Shown here piece after piece: positions 3,593 through 38,264 of a stretch of DNA of 38,264 bases. Every line of letters begins with the position of its first letter. The first letter of the stretch is position 1. The position numbers were made by a program, and so were the translations under genes. Where the stretch lies: NCBI GenBank assembly GCA_944321175.1, contig CALUKI010000006.1:1-38264 (forward strand), written 5' to 3'. Below the pieces are notes generated by a model that saw only the letters and a program-made list of their open reading frames with translations, did not search any database and was not told the origin of the DNA. Source of the stretch: an uncultured Alistipes sp. (GTDB lineage: Bacteria > Bacteroidota > Bacteroidia > Bacteroidales > Rikenellaceae).

Positions 3593-3623
3593 AAAAAAAG
3601 AGGCCACTTAAATCGTAACCTCT
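3593..3623 (-). terminator. Rho-independent terminator of tRNA-Thr
   Basis: On the minus strand AGAGGTTAC (3623-3615) pairs with GTGGCCTCT (3607-3599) through nine pairs, two of them G-U, around a seven-base loop. Seven T follow. It lies 10 nt past the tRNA 3' end. Being chromosomal in style, it suggests that any integration crossover lies inside or very near the tRNA rather than between tRNA and terminator. Confidence 0.85.
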
Positions 3624-3633
3624 TGGTTTTCAG

Positions 3634-3705
3634 AGCCGAAACCGAGATTTGAACTCGGGACCCCTTCATTACGAGTGAAGTGCTCTACCGCTGAGCTATT
3701 TCGGC
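3634..3705 (-). tRNA. tRNA-Thr (anticodon CGU)
   Basis: The minus strand folds into a full cloverleaf: acceptor GCCGAAA with TTTCGGC, D-arm GCTC...GAGC, anticodon stem CTTCA/TGAAG with loop CTCGTAA, and T-arm CCGAG TTCAAAT CTCGG. The anticodon CGT reads ACG (Thr). The 3' CCA is not encoded, as is common in this phylum. The tRNA 3' end faces the integrase, making it the likely integration site. Positions 3480-3783 hold this tRNA with its terminator and promoter and the putative arm sites, and no protein gene. Confidence 0.96.
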
Positions 3706-3728
3706 AATCCAATTTTCGAATTCGGGGG

Positions 3729-3736
3729 CAAAGATA
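3729..3736 (-). promoter_or_regulatory. -7 element of the tRNA-Thr promoter
   Basis: TATCTTTG on the minus strand fits the TAnnTTTG consensus and lies 23 nt upstream of the tRNA 5' end at 3705. No clear TTTG stands at -33; that region is A/T-rich instead. Confidence 0.55.
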
Positions 3737-3783
3737 CTACTTTTTATTATTTTTTCACTATTTTCGCAAGAAAATTTCAGTAA

Positions 3784-5211
3784 ATGATCACTTTTCTCCT
3801 TTGTCTCGCCGCGCTGATCGTCGCCTATTTCACATACGGACGCCGGCTCGAACGGCTCGCTCAGATCGATTCCGGCAACTCCGTCCCCAGCGAAAGACTC
3901 TACGACGGAATCGATTACGTCCCGATGCCCCGTTGGAAGGTATTCCTGATCCAACTGCTCAATATTGCCGGCACCGGCCCGATCTTCGGCGCGATCCTCG
4001 GTGCCGCATTCGGGCCCGTCGCCTTCCTCTGGATTACTCTCGGCGGAATATTCATGGGCGCCATGCACGATTTTCTGTCCGGAGTCATGATCCTCCGAAA
4101 CGACGGCCTGAGCCTCCCCGAAGTTGCCGGTCGATACCTCGGAGACGGCATGCGGCACTTCATCCGCGTGTTTTGCGTCATTCTTATGGTCATCGTCGGT
4201 GCCGTATTCCTTCTCAGTCCCGCCGATATCCTCTTCGGAATGGTTCCGGCAATTCCGCATTCGGTCTGGGTCTGGATCATTCTGGCATACTACTTCATCG
4301 CGACCCTGCTGCCCATCGACAAAATCATCGGAAAGATCTATCCCGTCTTCGGCGCCGCACTCATCCTCATGGTGCTGGGCCTGTTCGGAGTCCTTATCTT
4401 CGGCCCCTATCGCATCCCCGAACTCACGACGCTTGCAAACGCGCAACTCAATCCCCGCGACATGCCCATCATCCCGACCCTCTTCATTACCGTTGCCTGC
4501 GGAGCCATCTCCGGATTTCACGCTACGCAATCGCCGTTGATGGCGCGGTGCATGCGCAACGAAAAAGAGTGCCGGCCCGTCTTCTACGGCGCCATGATCT
4601 CCGAAAGCATCATCGCGCTGATCTGGGCCGCGATCGGCATGGCCTTCTTCGGCGGTGCGCATGCGCTGGCCGAAGCACTGGCACAAACCGGGAACAGCGC
4701 CGCATGGGTCGTGAATGTCATTTCAACCACCACGCTGGGAGTCGTCGGCGGCATCCTCGCCCTTTTGGGCGTCGTCGCAGCTCCCATCACCTCCGGCGAT
4801 ACGGCATTCCGCTCCGCACGTCTGATCATCGCCGATATCTTCCATATCGAACAGCGCACCGCATGGAAACGTTTTGCCATTGCCATTCCGCTGTTCGCCG
4901 TCGGATACTACATCACCCAGATCGATTTCTCCGTCATTTGGCGGTATTTCGCATGGACGAATCAAACATTGGGGGCAATCACCCTTTGGACTATTGTCGT
5001 CTGGCTGGCGTCCACCCGCCGCAATTGCTTCTTCGCGTTGCTCCCCGCCCTCTTCATGACCTTCATCTGCGCGTCGTTCGTCTTCGTTTCCGATCAATTC
5101 TTCGGGATGGAAAACCGAATCGCAGCATACATGTTGGCCGGAGCCGCAACCTTGATCGTTTTGCTTTTCGCCATTCTAAAAATTCGCCGCGATGGCCGAC
5201 GTCACGCTTAA
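3784..5211 (+). CDS. cstA: CstA-family carbon-starvation peptide/pyruvate transporter
   Basis: A polytopic inner-membrane protein of 475 residues. CstA proteins take up peptides, and related members take up pyruvate, when carbon is limiting. Family marks are the N-terminal YDGIDYVPMPRWKVFLIQ at about residues 40-57, GTGPIFGAILGAAFGP (63-78), and about a dozen hydrophobic segments. It is shorter than the roughly 700-residue enterobacterial CstA but matches the compact Bacteroidetes form. The ATG at 3784 is the first start after the tRNA region; TACTTTTT near 3738 could be a weak -7 box. The next gene overlaps its last 20 nt, so the two are probably co-translated. Confidence 0.9.
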   Translation: MITFLLCLAALIVAYFTYGRRLERLAQIDSGNSVPSERLYDGIDYVPMPRWKVFLIQLLNIAGTGPIFGAILGAAFGPVAFLWITLGGIFMGAMHDFLSGVMILRNDGLSLPEVAGRYLGDGMRHFIRVFCVILMVIVGAVFLLSPADILFGMVPAIPHSVWVWIILAYYFIATLLPIDKIIGKIYPVFGAALILMVLGLFGVLIFGPYRIPELTTLANAQLNPRDMPIIPTLFITVACGAISGFHATQSPLMARCMRNEKECRPVFYGAMISESIIALIWAAIGMAFFGGAHALAEALAQTGNSAAWVVNVISTTTLGVVGGILALLGVVAAPITSGDTAFRSARLIIADIFHIEQRTAWKRFAIAIPLFAVGYYITQIDFSVIWRYFAWTNQTLGAITLWTIVVWLASTRRNCFFALLPALFMTFICASFVFVSDQFFGMENRIAAYMLAGAATLIVLLFAILKIRRDGRRHA

Positions 5212-5890
5212 ACCCACGCCCGACCAGACCTTCGAGATCGAGGGCCGCGATGAATACGATTTCCTCCGCACGCTCCGCCGTTCGGAGGAGCTTCAGCGGA
5301 ACGGGGCCGTCGATGAGGCCTGCAACCTGCGGTTTCATGCTTTTCAGCACCTTGCGGAGTTGATCCCCGACGATGAAGAGATCATTCTCGAATGGTCGCA
5401 CCCCAATACGCGGGCGGCACTCGACCTGCTCTACCGGTCGGCGATCGACCACTTCCTGATCGATGATTTCGAACTTTCGGCGGCCATGCTGGAGATGCTG
5501 CTCGATCTCGATCCCGAAGACCACGAGGAGGCGACATGGCTGCTGGCATTCGACTATGTGGCACTCGGAGATTATGATGCCTTCGATGAGGTTATCAACG
5601 ACGTCTCGGACAAATACCCCGAAAAGCCGTTGTTGACGCTATGGTCGGAGTTCCGGCGGCACGGCACACTGCCGCCCGGCGAAGCGATCCGGCTGCAACG
5701 CCATTTTACCCCCTATTACAAGGAGTTCATTGCCGAGAGCCACCCGGCCGACGAAAGCTACCTCCACGACATCGAAAGTGAGCACCCGTCGCAGGAGGCG
5801 CTGGCGCGGGAGCTGTGGCTCAAGACCGAGAATCTCTGGACGGCATTCCCCGACTTCATACCGGCACTCAAAGCCCTGCCCCGACATTGA
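5192..5890 (+). CDS. Conserved protein with tetratricopeptide-like helical repeats
   Basis: A soluble, strongly acidic protein of 232 residues without a signal peptide. Residues 85-150 show paired helices in TPR-like spacing (FELSAAMLEMLLDLDPEDHE, then DYVALGDYDAFDEVINDV), suggesting a scaffold for protein contacts. No catalytic motif is visible. The ATG at 5192 lies inside the end of cstA, a 20-nt overlap, so translation is likely coupled and a link to the transporter is possible but unproven. A strong bidirectional hairpin ends this unit at 6022-6063. Function unknown. Confidence 0.75.
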   Translation: MADVTLKPTPDQTFEIEGRDEYDFLRTLRRSEELQRNGAVDEACNLRFHAFQHLAELIPDDEEIILEWSHPNTRAALDLLYRSAIDHFLIDDFELSAAMLEMLLDLDPEDHEEATWLLAFDYVALGDYDAFDEVINDVSDKYPEKPLLTLWSEFRRHGTLPPGEAIRLQRHFTPYYKEFIAESHPADESYLHDIESEHPSQEALARELWLKTENLWTAFPDFIPALKALPRH

Positions 5891-32755: not shown

Positions 32756-34045
32756 TTGGAAGGAAGTCTTGTCACAATCAACCCCGCAGATATCGGGCTG
32801 CTTTTCCCGGCTGTCGTCACGTTGTGCCTGCTGTTCATATCGGGACTCGTGTCGGGCGCCGAGATCTCGTTTTTTTCATTGACGCCGCACGACCTGCAAA
32901 ACATCAAAGCCCATCCGGAACGTCCGTCGAACAGCGCCATCCTCAATCTGTTGAGCAATGTGGACCAGTTGCTGGCCACGATTCTGGTGGTAAACAACCT
33001 GGTCAATATCTGCATCGTCCTCCTCGCCGCGAAGATCATCAATACGCTGTTCTCGTTCGGGTCGGCCGGCATGCAGTTCCTCTTCGAATCGGTGATCGCG
33101 ACATTTCTGCTGCTGCTCTTCGGAGAGATCATCCCCAAAGTTTTCGCTCAAAGCCGGCCGCTGCGTTTTGCCCGTTGGGTGGCACGCATCATTCTGCTGT
33201 TTCGGAGGCTTGTCCGTCCGGTCTCCTATGTTCTTATCCGCACCGGAAGCTCGATCAGCGAACACGCCGTGCGCAAAAGCGAGATCTCGCTCGACGAGTT
33301 GGCCGACGCCGTCGATATGACCAGCACGACCTCGGCCGAGGAACACAACATGTTGTCGGGAATCGTCAAATTCGCCAATACGGAGGTGCAGGAGATCATG
33401 CGCCCCCGCATGGATGTGGTCGCCGTCGCCGTCGGCGAAAGTTATGAAAGCGTCCGCGGACGAATCATCGAATCGGGATTCTCGCGGATTCCCGTCTATG
33501 AGGAGGATCTCGACAACATCAGGGGGATTCTCTATGTGAAGGATCTGCTGCCCTACATCAACAACGGAGACGAGTTCGACTGGCGGCAGCTTCTGCGCAA
33601 GGCATATTTCGTTCCGGAGCACAAGAAGATCAACGATCTGCTGGAAGAGTTCCAGTCGAACAAGGTCCATATGGCGGTGGTCGTCGATGAGTACGGTTCG
33701 ACGCTCGGCATCGTATCGCTCGAAGATATTCTGGAAGAGATCGTCGGGGAGATCTCCGACGAAAGCGATACCGTCGAGACGTTCTATACGAAACTCGATG
33801 AACGGAACTATCTTTTCGACGGGAAGACCCATATCGGCGACTTCGAACGGGTGTTGCAGCTCCCCGAAGAGACCTTCTCCGACTGTAAGGGCAAGGCCGA
33901 GACACTGGCCGGGCTGATGCTTGAGATTCACCGGAATTTTCTCCAGCAAGGGGAGTCGGTCACGGCCCACGATATTCGGTTTACGGTTCATACGCTCGAC
34001 GGACACCGTATCGAAAAGATAGAAGTGACACTGCCGGAGCAGTGA
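32756..34045 (+). CDS. GldE-like CNNM/CBS membrane protein
   Basis: A 429-residue inner-membrane protein. Residues 10-165 form the CNNM (DUF21) transmembrane domain (VTLCLLFISGLVSGAEISFFSL; LFGEIIPKVFA). Two CBS domains lie at about 215-330 (MRPRMDVVAVA; MAVVVDEYGSTLGIVSLEDILEEIVGEI) and a CorC/HlyC domain ends the protein. Relatives include Mg/Co efflux proteins and GldE of gliding Bacteroidetes; GldE-type genes also occur in non-gliding species. No ATG fits: TTG 32756 precedes EGSLVTINPADIG and is taken as the start. A phosphopantetheinyl transferase follows, as I recall is common around gldE. Confidence 0.88.
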   Translation: MEGSLVTINPADIGLLFPAVVTLCLLFISGLVSGAEISFFSLTPHDLQNIKAHPERPSNSAILNLLSNVDQLLATILVVNNLVNICIVLLAAKIINTLFSFGSAGMQFLFESVIATFLLLLFGEIIPKVFAQSRPLRFARWVARIILLFRRLVRPVSYVLIRTGSSISEHAVRKSEISLDELADAVDMTSTTSAEEHNMLSGIVKFANTEVQEIMRPRMDVVAVAVGESYESVRGRIIESGFSRIPVYEEDLDNIRGILYVKDLLPYINNGDEFDWRQLLRKAYFVPEHKKINDLLEEFQSNKVHMAVVVDEYGSTLGIVSLEDILEEIVGEISDESDTVETFYTKLDERNYLFDGKTHIGDFERVLQLPEETFSDCKGKAETLAGLMLEIHRNFLQQGESVTAHDIRFTVHTLDGHRIEKIEVTLPEQ

Positions 34046-34863: not shown

Positions 34864-35352
34864 TCATTTATGCCGCAACCGGAAACGCGGCGTAAGATCC
34901 TCGCGCGTGCCGTCCGGCTGAATCCGCCACAACCGTTGGTTGGTCGTCGGGGAGTCCAACGGGCCGAGTGCCGCAATATAGGGGCCCAGTTTTACATAGT
35001 CCAGAACACCTGCAGGATCGAATCCCGCAGGCAGCGCCGGCCGGCCCGAATACCATCCCGTACGCAACGCAGGGCGCAACGACCGCACAAGAGCCGAACA
35101 GCGCAGCACCTCCGCCGGATCGCCGTCGCCGCCCATCAGGCAGAAACAGGTGATCGCCGAACCGTAACGCGCCAACAACCCTTCGACCGCCGCATCGGTC
35201 AGCGGCTCGCCGATGTCGGTCTGCAGCTGGGGGCTGTGACACCCCGGACAACGGTTCGGGCAGCCCGAAAGATTGACTGCAAGCGTCACCTCGTCGGGAA
35301 TCTCCCGAAAAACGATGTCGTAGTCGGTATATCGCAACATTTTTCCGCTCAT
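34864..35352 (-). CDS. nrdG: Anaerobic ribonucleotide reductase activating protein
   Basis: Radical SAM enzyme that installs the glycyl radical on NrdD. GCPNRCPGCHS gives Cys31, Cys35 and Cys38, the CxxxCxxC [4Fe-4S] ligands. FCLMGGDGDPAEVLR binds SAM. The start ATG 35352 overlaps the nrdD stop as ATGA, forcing coupled translation; a second ATG at 35340 would skip four residues. From 35352 it is 162 residues, normal for the family. It lies downstream of nrdD and so shares the riboswitch at 37934-38113. Confidence 0.95.
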   Translation of the reverse strand: MSGKMLRYTDYDIVFREIPDEVTLAVNLSGCPNRCPGCHSPQLQTDIGEPLTDAAVEGLLARYGSAITCFCLMGGDGDPAEVLRCSALVRSLRPALRTGWYSGRPALPAGFDPAGVLDYVKLGPYIAALGPLDSPTTNQRLWRIQPDGTREDLTPRFRLRHK

Positions 35353-37502
35353 TCCTCCTTGCGGGGCGCCGCAACGCTCCGCTCCTCCATTCCGCCGCCC
35401 GCTTCCATGCCCGACGGCCGTGCATAGAAGCGCCGCGCCGCCTCCTGCTGCCGCGCCTGCGAGAAGTTGCTGACGCGTTTCATGTACCCGATCACACGCG
35501 TCAGGTAGTCGAGATTGGTCGAATGGCAGTGCGGGCACTCCTTCAGGTAGCGTTTGTCGATATGTCCGCAACCGTTGCAGACCGTGTTCGGAATGTTGAA
35601 CGTAAAGTAGTTGCAACCCTCCCGTGCCGCAACACGCAGCAACTGCCGGTATTGCGGCTGCGACAGGTGCTCTTCCAGATTCATGTGCAGCGCCGAGCCG
35701 CCCGTGAGATGGGAGATGTATTTTGCGCCGTGCAGCCGGAACTTGTCCACGATGTTGAGCGTCGTATCCTCCACGACGTAAAAATAACTGTTGTAGCAGT
35801 CGCGCGGAACGCGGTATCCGTCCTCCCGATCCCATTTGGCGTGTTTCACGCCGACGTTTTCCGCAGGAATCATCTCGCAGTTGAACAGCACGTCCTTCGT
35901 CCGATACTTGCGGTTGTAACGCTCGACCAGGCCCAGAATCTCCTCCGTAAAACGGACATAGGCAGGATTGTCGTCGATGGCGATTCCCTTGAACTCGGCC
36001 GCTTCGACCAGTCCGTTGACACCGATCGTCAGGTATTGGCGGCCGAGATTGATATACCCCGCATCGAACAGCGGGAGCATACCCTTGCGCTGCAACTCCT
36101 TGAGATTCTCGTTGTAGGCCAGCTGAACCTTGTGCACCAGATCGACCACCTCCTCAAGGAACGACAAACAGGGGATTCCCTGCCGCTCCGCATATTGGAT
36201 GCAGCGGTTCAGGTTGATCGTCAGCACGCTCTTCGACCCTGTCGAAACCCCGCCGGCACCCAGCGTATAGCTGAACCCGTTGTCCTGAATCTCGTTGCGC
36301 AGGCGGCAGCACGACGACAGCGAATCGGCGTTGTCGCTCATATAGGTGAAAAACGAATGGCCTTCGGCATACATCTCGGCGGTGAAATCGCCCCACTCCC
36401 GATCCATCACGTCGCCCTCTTTCGTCAGCAGCGCCACCGTCTCGACCGGAAACGTGAGCACCGTCCGCAGCCGCTCGGCGTTGAACCACTTCATGAAGCG
36501 CTTCTGCAGCCACGACAGCCCCTCCCAATCGGGCCGCGAGCCGTCGGGAAAACGGAATTCCCCAAACAACGACTCGAAATAGTATCGGTCGTAATAGGCG
36601 ATGTTCCAGAAAACGGCTTGAAAATTCCGCGCTCCCGTCGGCTGATTGATCGAATAGACCACCTGTTCGAAACAGTCGGTGATGACCTTGTCGATCGTCC
36701 GCCGGCGGCGCGACAGATCGACGACCTCATCCGCCCGCTTGTAGTAGTCCGGGCCGTATTCCTGTCCGATGAAATAGTTCATATACATCAGAAATTCGGG
36801 CGTGGCGCAGGCCCCCGAAAGCATCGACGACACGATGAAGACCATATTGACAAATCCGCCGCAGAAGGATTTGAGGTTTGTCGGCCGGGTCGAATTCCCG
36901 CCGATCGACGTCGTTCCGTTGAGCAGCCAGGGATACATCGTGATCGAAGCACAATAGTTGGCCAGCGACGTCTCGTCGTTCTTGTAGATGAAATGCCGGT
37001 TCAACAGATCGAGATAACGGTCCGAGAGTTCCTTGCCGTACATCTCCTTCAGCCGGTCGGTCAACAGCCGCCGGTTCAGGCGGATGAAATTCCGCTTCGG
37101 CAGCTCCCCGGTCAGCGTTGCGATGTTCTTGTTCTCCACATTCGCATTGGCGTCGTATTTCGATCCGCTCGCCGGATTCGACGCATCGCAATAACTCATC
37201 AGGAATTGCAGCTTGTCGCGCACCTCCCGATCCTCCGTATGCGTATGCCGGTAGATGATATAGCTTTTTGCAACCCGATAGTACCGTTCGGCCATCAAGG
37301 CTGTTTCAACCTGATTCTGAATCTCTTCGACCGACATGCCGTCGGTGATGCGGATGCGGCTCAGAATCGGCGTCAGCACCTCTTCGGTGGCGAAACCGCC
37401 GACCGAAAGGAACGCCTTCGAGATCGCGGACTTGATCTTGTCAAGAGAGAAGCGTTCGCGTTTGCCGTCACGCTTCGTAATGAAGATTTCGGAACTGCTC
37501 AT
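35349..37502 (-). CDS. nrdD: Anaerobic (class III) ribonucleoside-triphosphate reductase
   Basis: Makes deoxynucleotides from NTPs in the absence of oxygen, using a glycyl radical instead of B12. The N-terminal ATP-cone (residues 4-95, FITKRDGKRERFSLDKIKSAI) is the allosteric domain. The body shows TTSIGGNSTRPTN, GGSALHMNLEEHL and SKSVLTINLNR. The end carries zinc ligands (CNGCGH, CPHCHS) and the radical loop with Gly in TRVIGYMKRVSNFS. Start ATG 37502 (MSSSEIF) gives 717 residues; ATG 37541, preceded by AAGGA, would add 13 and may be used. Single transcription unit with nrdG, probably B12-repressed. Confidence 0.96.
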   Translation of the reverse strand: MSSSEIFITKRDGKRERFSLDKIKSAISKAFLSVGGFATEEVLTPILSRIRITDGMSVEEIQNQVETALMAERYYRVAKSYIIYRHTHTEDREVRDKLQFLMSYCDASNPASGSKYDANANVENKNIATLTGELPKRNFIRLNRRLLTDRLKEMYGKELSDRYLDLLNRHFIYKNDETSLANYCASITMYPWLLNGTTSIGGNSTRPTNLKSFCGGFVNMVFIVSSMLSGACATPEFLMYMNYFIGQEYGPDYYKRADEVVDLSRRRRTIDKVITDCFEQVVYSINQPTGARNFQAVFWNIAYYDRYYFESLFGEFRFPDGSRPDWEGLSWLQKRFMKWFNAERLRTVLTFPVETVALLTKEGDVMDREWGDFTAEMYAEGHSFFTYMSDNADSLSSCCRLRNEIQDNGFSYTLGAGGVSTGSKSVLTINLNRCIQYAERQGIPCLSFLEEVVDLVHKVQLAYNENLKELQRKGMLPLFDAGYINLGRQYLTIGVNGLVEAAEFKGIAIDDNPAYVRFTEEILGLVERYNRKYRTKDVLFNCEMIPAENVGVKHAKWDREDGYRVPRDCYNSYFYVVEDTTLNIVDKFRLHGAKYISHLTGGSALHMNLEEHLSQPQYRQLLRVAAREGCNYFTFNIPNTVCNGCGHIDKRYLKECPHCHSTNLDYLTRVIGYMKRVSNFSQARQQEAARRFYARPSGMEAGGGMEERSVAAPRKEE

Positions 37503-37933
37503 AACATATTGTCTTTTGGTTTTTTCGTAGCACCTTCTCATGGCGTCCTTATCCGTCGCGGCCCGATTCCGGGGAGGGCCCTGCCATGGGCCGCGCCGCG
37601 TTTATGACGCGAAGCGGCCTGTCGCCCGGCTCTGCGACCTGCCGGCCGGCAACGAGCCGAACCGGCACAACCCTGCCCCACAAGGCCTGCAGGGAAAATC
37701 GACAGGCGCCGTGCCGTTCCTCACCCGGCAAACGGCATCGTCCGCCGGCCGTCACGGCAAAACCGGAAACGGCAGCAACCTGTCGGAAACAAATAGGGGA
37801 AAGCATATAAACGATATCGCGGCGACGGTTTTCCCAAGACGCCATTCCTCTCTCCGCCCTCCCTCCTGCGGAAGAACGGGGCGTCGCACGCGAACCGCCG
37901 GTAAATGCCCTTCAACCCGAAAGCCCGAACGGA
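37503..37933 (-). other. Long leader between the riboswitch and nrdD
   Basis: About 430 nt of GC-rich sequence on the nrdD transcript with no recognised gene. It contains one 98-codon open frame (listed separately), a six-pair inverted repeat CCCTGC (37671-37676) / GCAGGG (37689-37694) without T-run, and purine-rich stretches at 37846-37870. No rho-independent terminator is seen directly after the riboswitch, so the mode of control is not evident. Confidence 0.5.
37549..37845 (-). CDS. Doubtful 98-codon ORF in the nrdD leader
   Basis: An ATG at 37845 with a purine-rich stretch (GGAGGGAGGGCGGAGAGAGG) just before it opens a frame MASWENRRRDIVYMLSPICF..., closing at 37549, 8 nt before the possible nrdD start at 37541. 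That spacing would allow coupled translation. The protein is very Arg/Gly/Pro-rich with no domain, signal or membrane helix, and open frames of this size are common by chance in such GC-rich DNA. It is listed because its position between riboswitch and nrdD is suggestive. Confidence 0.2.
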   Translation of the reverse strand: MASWENRRRDIVYMLSPICFRQVAAVSGFAVTAGGRCRLPGEERHGACRFSLQALWGRVVPVRLVAGRQVAEPGDRPLRVINAARPMAGPSPESGRDG

Positions 37934-38113
37934 GGACAACGGCAGGTCTTCTGACTTCTTCCGACCGTGACACCTTCCCAACGTCCACAAACGTCAGTGG
38001 CCGAATCGCACGGACTTGCAACGGAAGTTACAGCTACGGGGATAGTCCCTGACTTGCACAGGTGTTCCCTTTTCATCCGACATGTCGATTGCCGACAAGC
38101 GGAACCGTCATCC
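37934..38113 (-). promoter_or_regulatory. Cobalamin (B12) riboswitch
   Basis: The 180-nt minus-strand element has the class's conserved blocks in order: AAAAGGGAACACCTGTGCAAG, GGGACTATCCCCGTAGCTGTAAC, GCCACTG, GGGAAGG, and the B12 box AAGTCAGAAGACCTGCC (37957-37941). The closing helix P1 pairs GGATGACGG (38113-38105) with CCGTTGTCC (37942-37934) across nine pairs, two G-U. Such RNAs bind adenosylcobalamin or related forms and lower expression of the gene that follows, here nrdDG. The variant loops are long, as in Bacteroidales. No terminator follows closely, so translational control is more likely. Confidence 0.93.
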
Positions 38114-38123
38114 TTGGTATCTG

Positions 38124-38131
38124 CAAAAGTA
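38124..38131 (-). promoter_or_regulatory. -7 element for the riboswitch-nrdDG transcript
   Basis: TACTTTTG on the minus strand fits TAnnTTTG and would start RNA near 38117, a few bases before P1 of the riboswitch. A -33 TTTG is not present. The remaining bases 38132-38264 show no feature I can support. Confidence 0.55.
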
Positions 38132-38264
38132 TGAAAAACGCGCATCTGCCGGACCGTTCCGCAGGGGAAAAGATCAACAAATTATGAACACCCCTCCCGG
38201 ATTCTTTTCTTCGTGCCGAATTGCCGAATTGGAATAAACGTCCCCAATCATCGGCCTTTTCCGG

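Follow-up and report, generated by a model that had tools for sequence, protein, structure and literature searches.

Control of a B12-independent ribonucleotide reductase (RNR) by a cobalamin riboswitch is not a new principle, and nrdDG operons with such a riboswitch, in genomes that also encode the B12-dependent enzyme NrdJ, have been known in other bacteria since 2004. The nrdABS riboswitch of Streptomyces, an organism that has NrdJ, was reportedly tested experimentally by Borovok in 2006; the B12-independent enzyme there is of class Ia, in contrast to the class III NrdDG considered here.

The published systems closest to this locus are cited below from portions of the respective papers. In 2004, nrdDG of Desulfovibrio vulgaris and Desulfuromonas was described as preceded by B12-elements in genomes that also encode NrdJ, and the reasoning was the same (PMC545781). 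Those systems share with the present locus a cobalamin riboswitch before a B12-independent nrdDG, an encoded NrdJ and the proposed logic, but they belong to delta-proteobacteria, whereas the organism studied here is Alistipes-like, has an NrdD of the TIGR02827 type and has no NrdB that we could find. In Propionibacterium acnes, annotated cobalamin riboswitches precede both nrdAB and nrdDG, and the authors proposed repression by B12 and raised, as a speculation, an internal promoter close to NrdR boxes (PMC3848588). An nrdDG operon under a cobalamin riboswitch and a genomic NrdJ are common to that case and ours, but P. acnes is an actinobacterium and has the class I nrdAB as well (PMC3848588). 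Chlorobium nrdD also carries an upstream cobalamin riboswitch, in this case in a green sulphur bacterium (PMC8620254). Within the Bacteroidales, Bacteroides thetaiotaomicron has B12 riboswitches through which B12 represses the downstream mRNA, but the targets are B12 uptake genes (PMC6143338, PMC8941943); at one such locus, the mRNA signal was reduced ~70-fold with 37 nM B12 (PMC6143338). A survey of riboswitch regulons covers the Bacteroidaceae and treats isozymes of B12-dependent enzymes as one of its classes, and its main text does not contain 'nrd' (PMC3766115). A non-exhaustive literature search found no statement of a riboswitch before nrdD in Bacteroidales, which does not prove that none exists.

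We analyzed a 38,264-nt stretch of DNA from an uncultured Alistipes sp. (the window), in which an earlier note, made from the letters alone, had placed a B12 riboswitch at 37934..38131 in front of nrdDG. The interpretation given in that note was supported, repression by B12 being a prediction. The cobalamin riboswitch, located 421 nt upstream of nrdD, is predicted with considerable confidence to switch off NrdDG on binding adenosylcobalamin, which would leave dNTP supply to NrdJ.

Riboswitch, predicted kissing loop and nrdDG operon

The element in the window was confirmed as a genuine cobalamin riboswitch, and the coordinates given in the note were correct. A cmscan of the whole window gave a complete match (model positions 1 to 189) to RF00174, with 91.4 bits against a gathering score of 31.5 bits, and the sole other above-threshold match was a tRNA; the riboswitch at this locus was also recovered by a whole-genome search. 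A P1 helix, which the earlier note had read as nine pairs, was present with about ten pairs as counted by eye (AGGAUGACGG with CCGUUGUCCU). The promoter box claimed directly upstream was likewise found (TACTTTTG), and it ends where the aptamer match begins. It is of the TAnnTTTG type, which we take to be the Bacteroidetes -7 promoter element. Among 64 loci with a riboswitch before nrdD (two having been dropped from a non-redundant set of 66), 53 had such a box immediately 5' of the aptamer, compared to 2.1 expected from shuffled segments, and the distance from box to GGGAA block was 50 to 63 nt in 44 of these 53 loci.

The next recognized genes on the same strand were nrdD and nrdG, in agreement with the earlier reading. 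With an NrdD above the family cut-off and an activase, NrdG, of its own, the enzyme is a class III RNR, and its NrdD, which combines an NRDD domain (PF13597) with an ATP cone (PF03477), is the only PF13597 match and the only NrdD of the genome. The two genes overlap by ATGA, and a second in-frame ATG for nrdD is present at 37541. A PADLOC search of NrdD gave no match. Upstream of the riboswitch and outside the window, an F-type ATP synthase-like operon was recognized by eye on the opposite strand, running away from the riboswitch. On the other side, a 4'-phosphopantetheinyl transferase-like gene (PF01648; 34213-34785, plus strand) lies between nrdG and a GldE-like gene (32756-34045).

A kissing loop between L5 and L13 has been described for the cobalamin riboswitch class (PMC9600662, cited in part). 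Judged by sequence, the element in the window is of this kind: aptamer loop L5 is complementary to a CGGG in an L13-type hairpin that is retained just 3' of the aptamer, and this hairpin is the predicted kissing partner of L5. The aptamer and the L13 hairpin were also intact in the nearest named relative found, an uncultured Alistipes (L056) whose NrdD is 98% identical. For wider comparison, 66 non-redundant loci were used, eight having been dropped from 74 as second copies of the same genome or as one of the near-twins L037/L056. L5 with CCCG was combined with L13 with CGGG in 64 of these loci, and a stem of at least four pairs around the CGGG loop was possible in 60 (raw count). At one locus (L115), both loops were altered and still matched (L5 ACCTGC, L13 GCAGG), and at another (L110), the L13 loop was altered (CGAGG) and L5 was not, so that no paired change had occurred. 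When L095, whose hairpin is further downstream, was excluded, at least five of six L13 stem pairs were formed in 59 of 65 sequences, compared to a mean of 47.7 and a maximum of 55 after swapping of arms (2000 trials, kinship ignored); the hairpin of L088 is likewise further downstream, and its stem count may rest on the wrong CGGG. In ligand-free folding, the probability of the L13 hairpin was 0.00 when the whole leader of the window was folded and 0.08 in a shorter stretch, and a probability of at least 0.5 was reached in only 19 of the 65 loci. Energy models that take account of neither the ligand nor the kissing loop provide weak evidence, but the low modeled probability is the main doubt about the window's own switch.

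Table 1. Positions of the riboswitch, its leader and the nrdDG operon in the window
Feature	Position	Strand	Evidence
Promoter box TACTTTTG (TAnnTTTG type)	38124..38131	-	Sequence; 53/64 loci vs 2.1 expected
Cobalamin riboswitch aptamer (RF00174)	37924..38124	-	cmscan, 91.4 bits, E 1.5e-21
Aptamer loop L5 (UCCCCG)	38037..38042	-	Sequence; complement of CGGG at 37919-37916
L13-type hairpin (CTTTC-GGGTT-GAAGG), predicted partner of L5	37909..37923	-	Sequence; conservation among relatives
Remainder of the 421-nt leader	37503..37908	-	Length; terminator-like site at 37716-37700
nrdD, class III anaerobic ribonucleoside-triphosphate reductase	35349..37502	-	TIGR02827, 948.5 bits (cut-off, 568.3); PF13597; PF03477
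nrdG, radical-SAM activase	34864..35352	-	TIGR02826, 153 bits (cut-off, 151.7)

NrdJ and its co-occurrence with the riboswitch

A class II enzyme had been predicted elsewhere in the genome, and one was present. The genome (2.36 Mb, 36 contigs, 99% complete) contained a single PF02867 match, an 848-amino-acid NrdJ with a TIGR02504 score of 568.4 bits (cut-off, 399.95), whose best-matching solved structures were the B12-dependent RNRs 1xjk and 1xje; no NrdB was found in this 99%-complete genome. Two marks of a B12-repressed isozyme were observed, namely, a riboswitch upstream of nrdDG on the same strand and an NrdJ in the genome, and because of this combination it is likely that the cell turns the B12-free enzyme down when B12 is available.

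In total, the genome contained five cobalamin riboswitches. Two of the others precede DUF5074 proteins, in one case followed by a TonB receptor, and another precedes a DUF4465 protein. No CbiF/CobM match above the cut-off was detected, the one match being weak (32 bits compared to 259.65); this single marker is in keeping with uptake of B12 rather than synthesis and, together with the DUF5074/TonB riboswitches, makes B12 scavenging by this organism plausible. The fifth riboswitch (L008:7872-8086 in G000:C2, minus strand, 80.7 bits) had no recognized B12 gene downstream, and the first same-strand open reading frame (ORF) of at least 150 amino acids past it, at a distance of 456 nt, encodes prolyl-tRNA synthetase.

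Conservation was examined at three levels. The family sample comprised 61 genomes, of which 44 had a TIGR02827 match at E 1e-3 and 29 had one over the cut-off. The best 30 of these matches were used as family loci, and 26 leaders were readable once L034 (contig edge) and L038-L040 (truncated) had been left out. A riboswitch preceded nrdD in 22 of these 26 leaders of TIGR02827 type, the window included, and was absent from four (L023, L031, L032 and L036). NrdJ-like PF02867 matches, judged by score (~300 to 330 bits, like the NrdJ of this genome, compared to 524 for the class I NrdA of G027), were present in 21 of the 22 riboswitch-bearing genomes, the exception being an 84% complete genome (G058), and in two (G010 and G030) but not the other two (G034 and G044) of the riboswitch-less genomes. 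In the genus sample, this NrdD type was found in 14 of 61 genomes and the riboswitch in all 12 loci tested (two gene fragments, L054 and L055, were left out, and one locus is from a genome already present in the family set).

The named-genome set consisted of the best 80 of 488 relatives, with several near-copies among them and genome completeness not given. A pattern screen (scores of 41 to 53; highest of 200 shuffles, 40) detected an aptamer at 40 of the 80 loci, and Infernal found none upstream of nrdD at the other 40, one of which (L089) lacked upstream DNA. The search for NrdJ covered 79 of the 80 genomes, and the comparison of riboswitch and NrdJ omits L089 and L135. Of the 40 genomes with the riboswitch, 38 had an NrdJ over the cut-off, one had none (L085) and one (L104), with a sub-cut-off match of 316 bits compared to 400, was counted apart. 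The 38 genomes without the riboswitch were divided equally between those with NrdJ (19) and those with neither (19), so that the riboswitch was absent from 19 of the 20 genomes lacking NrdJ and present in one. Eight genomes that form one clade, six of which bear the label Paludibacteraceae, had NrdJ and no riboswitch before nrdD. These results indicated that the riboswitch goes with NrdJ and that NrdJ does not require the riboswitch.

In the NrdD tree, the near-copies L119 and L124 lacked both riboswitch and NrdJ, and the other two members of their clade (L128 and L132) had both. Three independent pairs differing in NrdJ were available on supported branches (seven on all branches); the riboswitch differed the same way in 2.5 of the three on average and in the opposite direction in 0.1, with a median p of 0.25 (not significant). 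In the reverse test, with eight pairs on supported branches differing in the riboswitch, NrdJ differed the same way in 2.5 and showed no difference in 5.5, which was also not significant. Independent cases were too few for this tree-based comparison.

The leader and alternative explanations

In the proposed mechanism, transcription would start from promoter box TACTTTTG and continue through nrdDG, binding of the ligand would stabilize the L5-L13 kissing loop, and the kissing loop would in turn lower either the level of nrdDG mRNA or its translation, this last step being the least certain. An effect on the mRNA level would be the likelier form of control, given that a locus in B. thetaiotaomicron loses its mRNA signal with B12.

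The leader was searched for an expression platform. A convincing terminator or a sequestration of the start site was not found in it; the region 37400-38264 contained one terminator-like site, compared to a mean of 1.5 in shuffles. Runs of T 20 to 60 nt past L13 were enriched among the relatives (31 of 66 leaders compared to 13.8 in shuffles), but a terminator common to the leaders was rejected because the window's near-twin L056 lacked such a run there. Several relatives had suggested an anti-aptamer pairing of leader GGCAGG with aptamer CCUGCC; a complement of at least 6 nt was present in 13 of 66 leaders (20%), compared to 13% of shuffles, and not in the window, and the idea was unsupported. 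ORFs within the leader or antisense to it had no Pfam match and were taken as chance frames. Folding of the leader alone gave a z of -1.94 and nothing specific, and a comparison across leaders found no common platform downstream of the L13 hairpin.

An alternative explanation is an intact aptamer that in this lineage is uncoupled from nrdD by the long, G+C-rich leader between them, such that transcription or translation of nrdDG would be independent of B12. Besides the absence of a detected platform and the disfavored L13 hairpin in the ligand-free fold, the distance from the aptamer to the likely nrdD start codon would fit uncoupling: at 421 nt, it was the longest among 22 family leaders, the other 21 of which were 83 to 259 nt (L042, for which no start was located, was excluded from the lengths). 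However, long leaders are not peculiar to this locus, since three more from the same genus (L045, L052 and L053), in which 300 to >500 nt separate riboswitch and nrdD, measured 304, 381 and >500 nt; the 527 nt recorded for L045 counts from an inner ATG, and the likely start gives ~512. Nor was a sense-strand TAnnTTTG box found inside the 421-nt leader, so that a second promoter of this type there was rejected, and the retention of aptamer and L13 hairpin in both the window and its near-twin also argues for a coupled switch. We consider uncoupling unlikely.

The ligand and the direction of the response cannot be read from sequence, and the riboswitch might instead activate nrdDG or sense a corrinoid other than adenosylcobalamin, in which case the logic would not be one of replacement by NrdJ. 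The association of the riboswitch with NrdJ speaks against this, as do the B12 riboswitches of B. thetaiotaomicron, which repress in the portions of the reports cited (PMC6143338, PMC8941943), and we regard such an arrangement as highly improbable. Least credible of all, to the point of being negligible, was a chance similarity or pseudo-riboswitch; nothing was found in its favor, and it was refuted by the covariance-model score (E of 1.5e-21) and runs counter to a position conserved across the family and beyond. Repression of nrdDG by adenosylcobalamin is the reading that we prefer.

The same switch before other RNR enzymes

The riboswitch was not confined to NrdD of the TIGR02827 type. At least 10 family genomes (G007, G008, G012, G021, G026, G037, G040, G041, G046 and G059) had a divergent NrdD with RF00174 upstream on the same strand. 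Riboswitch-preceded NrdD was confirmed for the PRK08270 type at L137, L139 and L143, with a neighboring activase of TIGR02495 at L139, and for the PRK07111 type at L136 and L141, with an activase of TIGR02491 at L141; a riboswitch before the class I nrdA-nrdB was confirmed at L146. For five further loci (L138, L140, L142, L147 and L186), the assignment comes only from similarity or from search tables. In L142 (2047-4254), nrdD does not appear as a single ORF after the riboswitch but as two in succession, of 350 and 322 amino acids, owing either to an interrupted gene or to a sequencing error. L146 (G027) contains two closely similar cobalamin riboswitches ~2 kb apart (3607-3812 and 5631-5836), one before a weakly ThrE-like protein and the other ~60 nt before nrdA-nrdB.

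RNR-associated aptamers were compared with 41 others, which were drawn mostly from the same genomes and for most of which the targets were not identified (39 regions were fetched as other aptamers, and five without a pattern match were dropped from the 41). Of the 33 RNR-associated aptamers, 23 had a P5 signature, CTA-TAG, and 31 had an L13 of the TCGGG type; among the 41 others, the corresponding counts were one and seven. The one aptamer among these 41 with the P5 signature is followed by a cobO-like gene and an ABC transport set (names assigned by eye). The idea that the P5/L13 signature is unique to RNR riboswitches was rejected, as L163/L190 carries it before other genes. The aptamers of L136 and L146 had neither signature, which suggests further recruitment. 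An aptamer tree of 143 columns, in which 3 of 71 inner branches were starred, does not settle the origin, because the columns are too few.

For the family as a whole, we tentatively propose, on a judgment that falls a little short of even, that the riboswitch has been retained across changes of the enzyme behind it. Often with a shared P5/L13 signature, it precedes NrdD of three subfamilies whose activases differ, and in other members a renewed recruitment would have placed it before a further NrdD and before a class I nrdAB. Selection would then act on B12 control of the back-up dNTP route as such, and this control would be kept or lost with NrdJ.

If repression by B12 holds, this organism would pick between two routes to DNA precursors by means of a contested gut vitamin and not by oxygen alone. 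No class I enzyme was found, which would leave the organism with just two RNRs, NrdJ and NrdDG, and make the choice between them complete. Since the riboswitch co-occurs with NrdJ and recurs before different RNRs, the rule could be tested in Bacteroidales amenable to culture and genetic modification.
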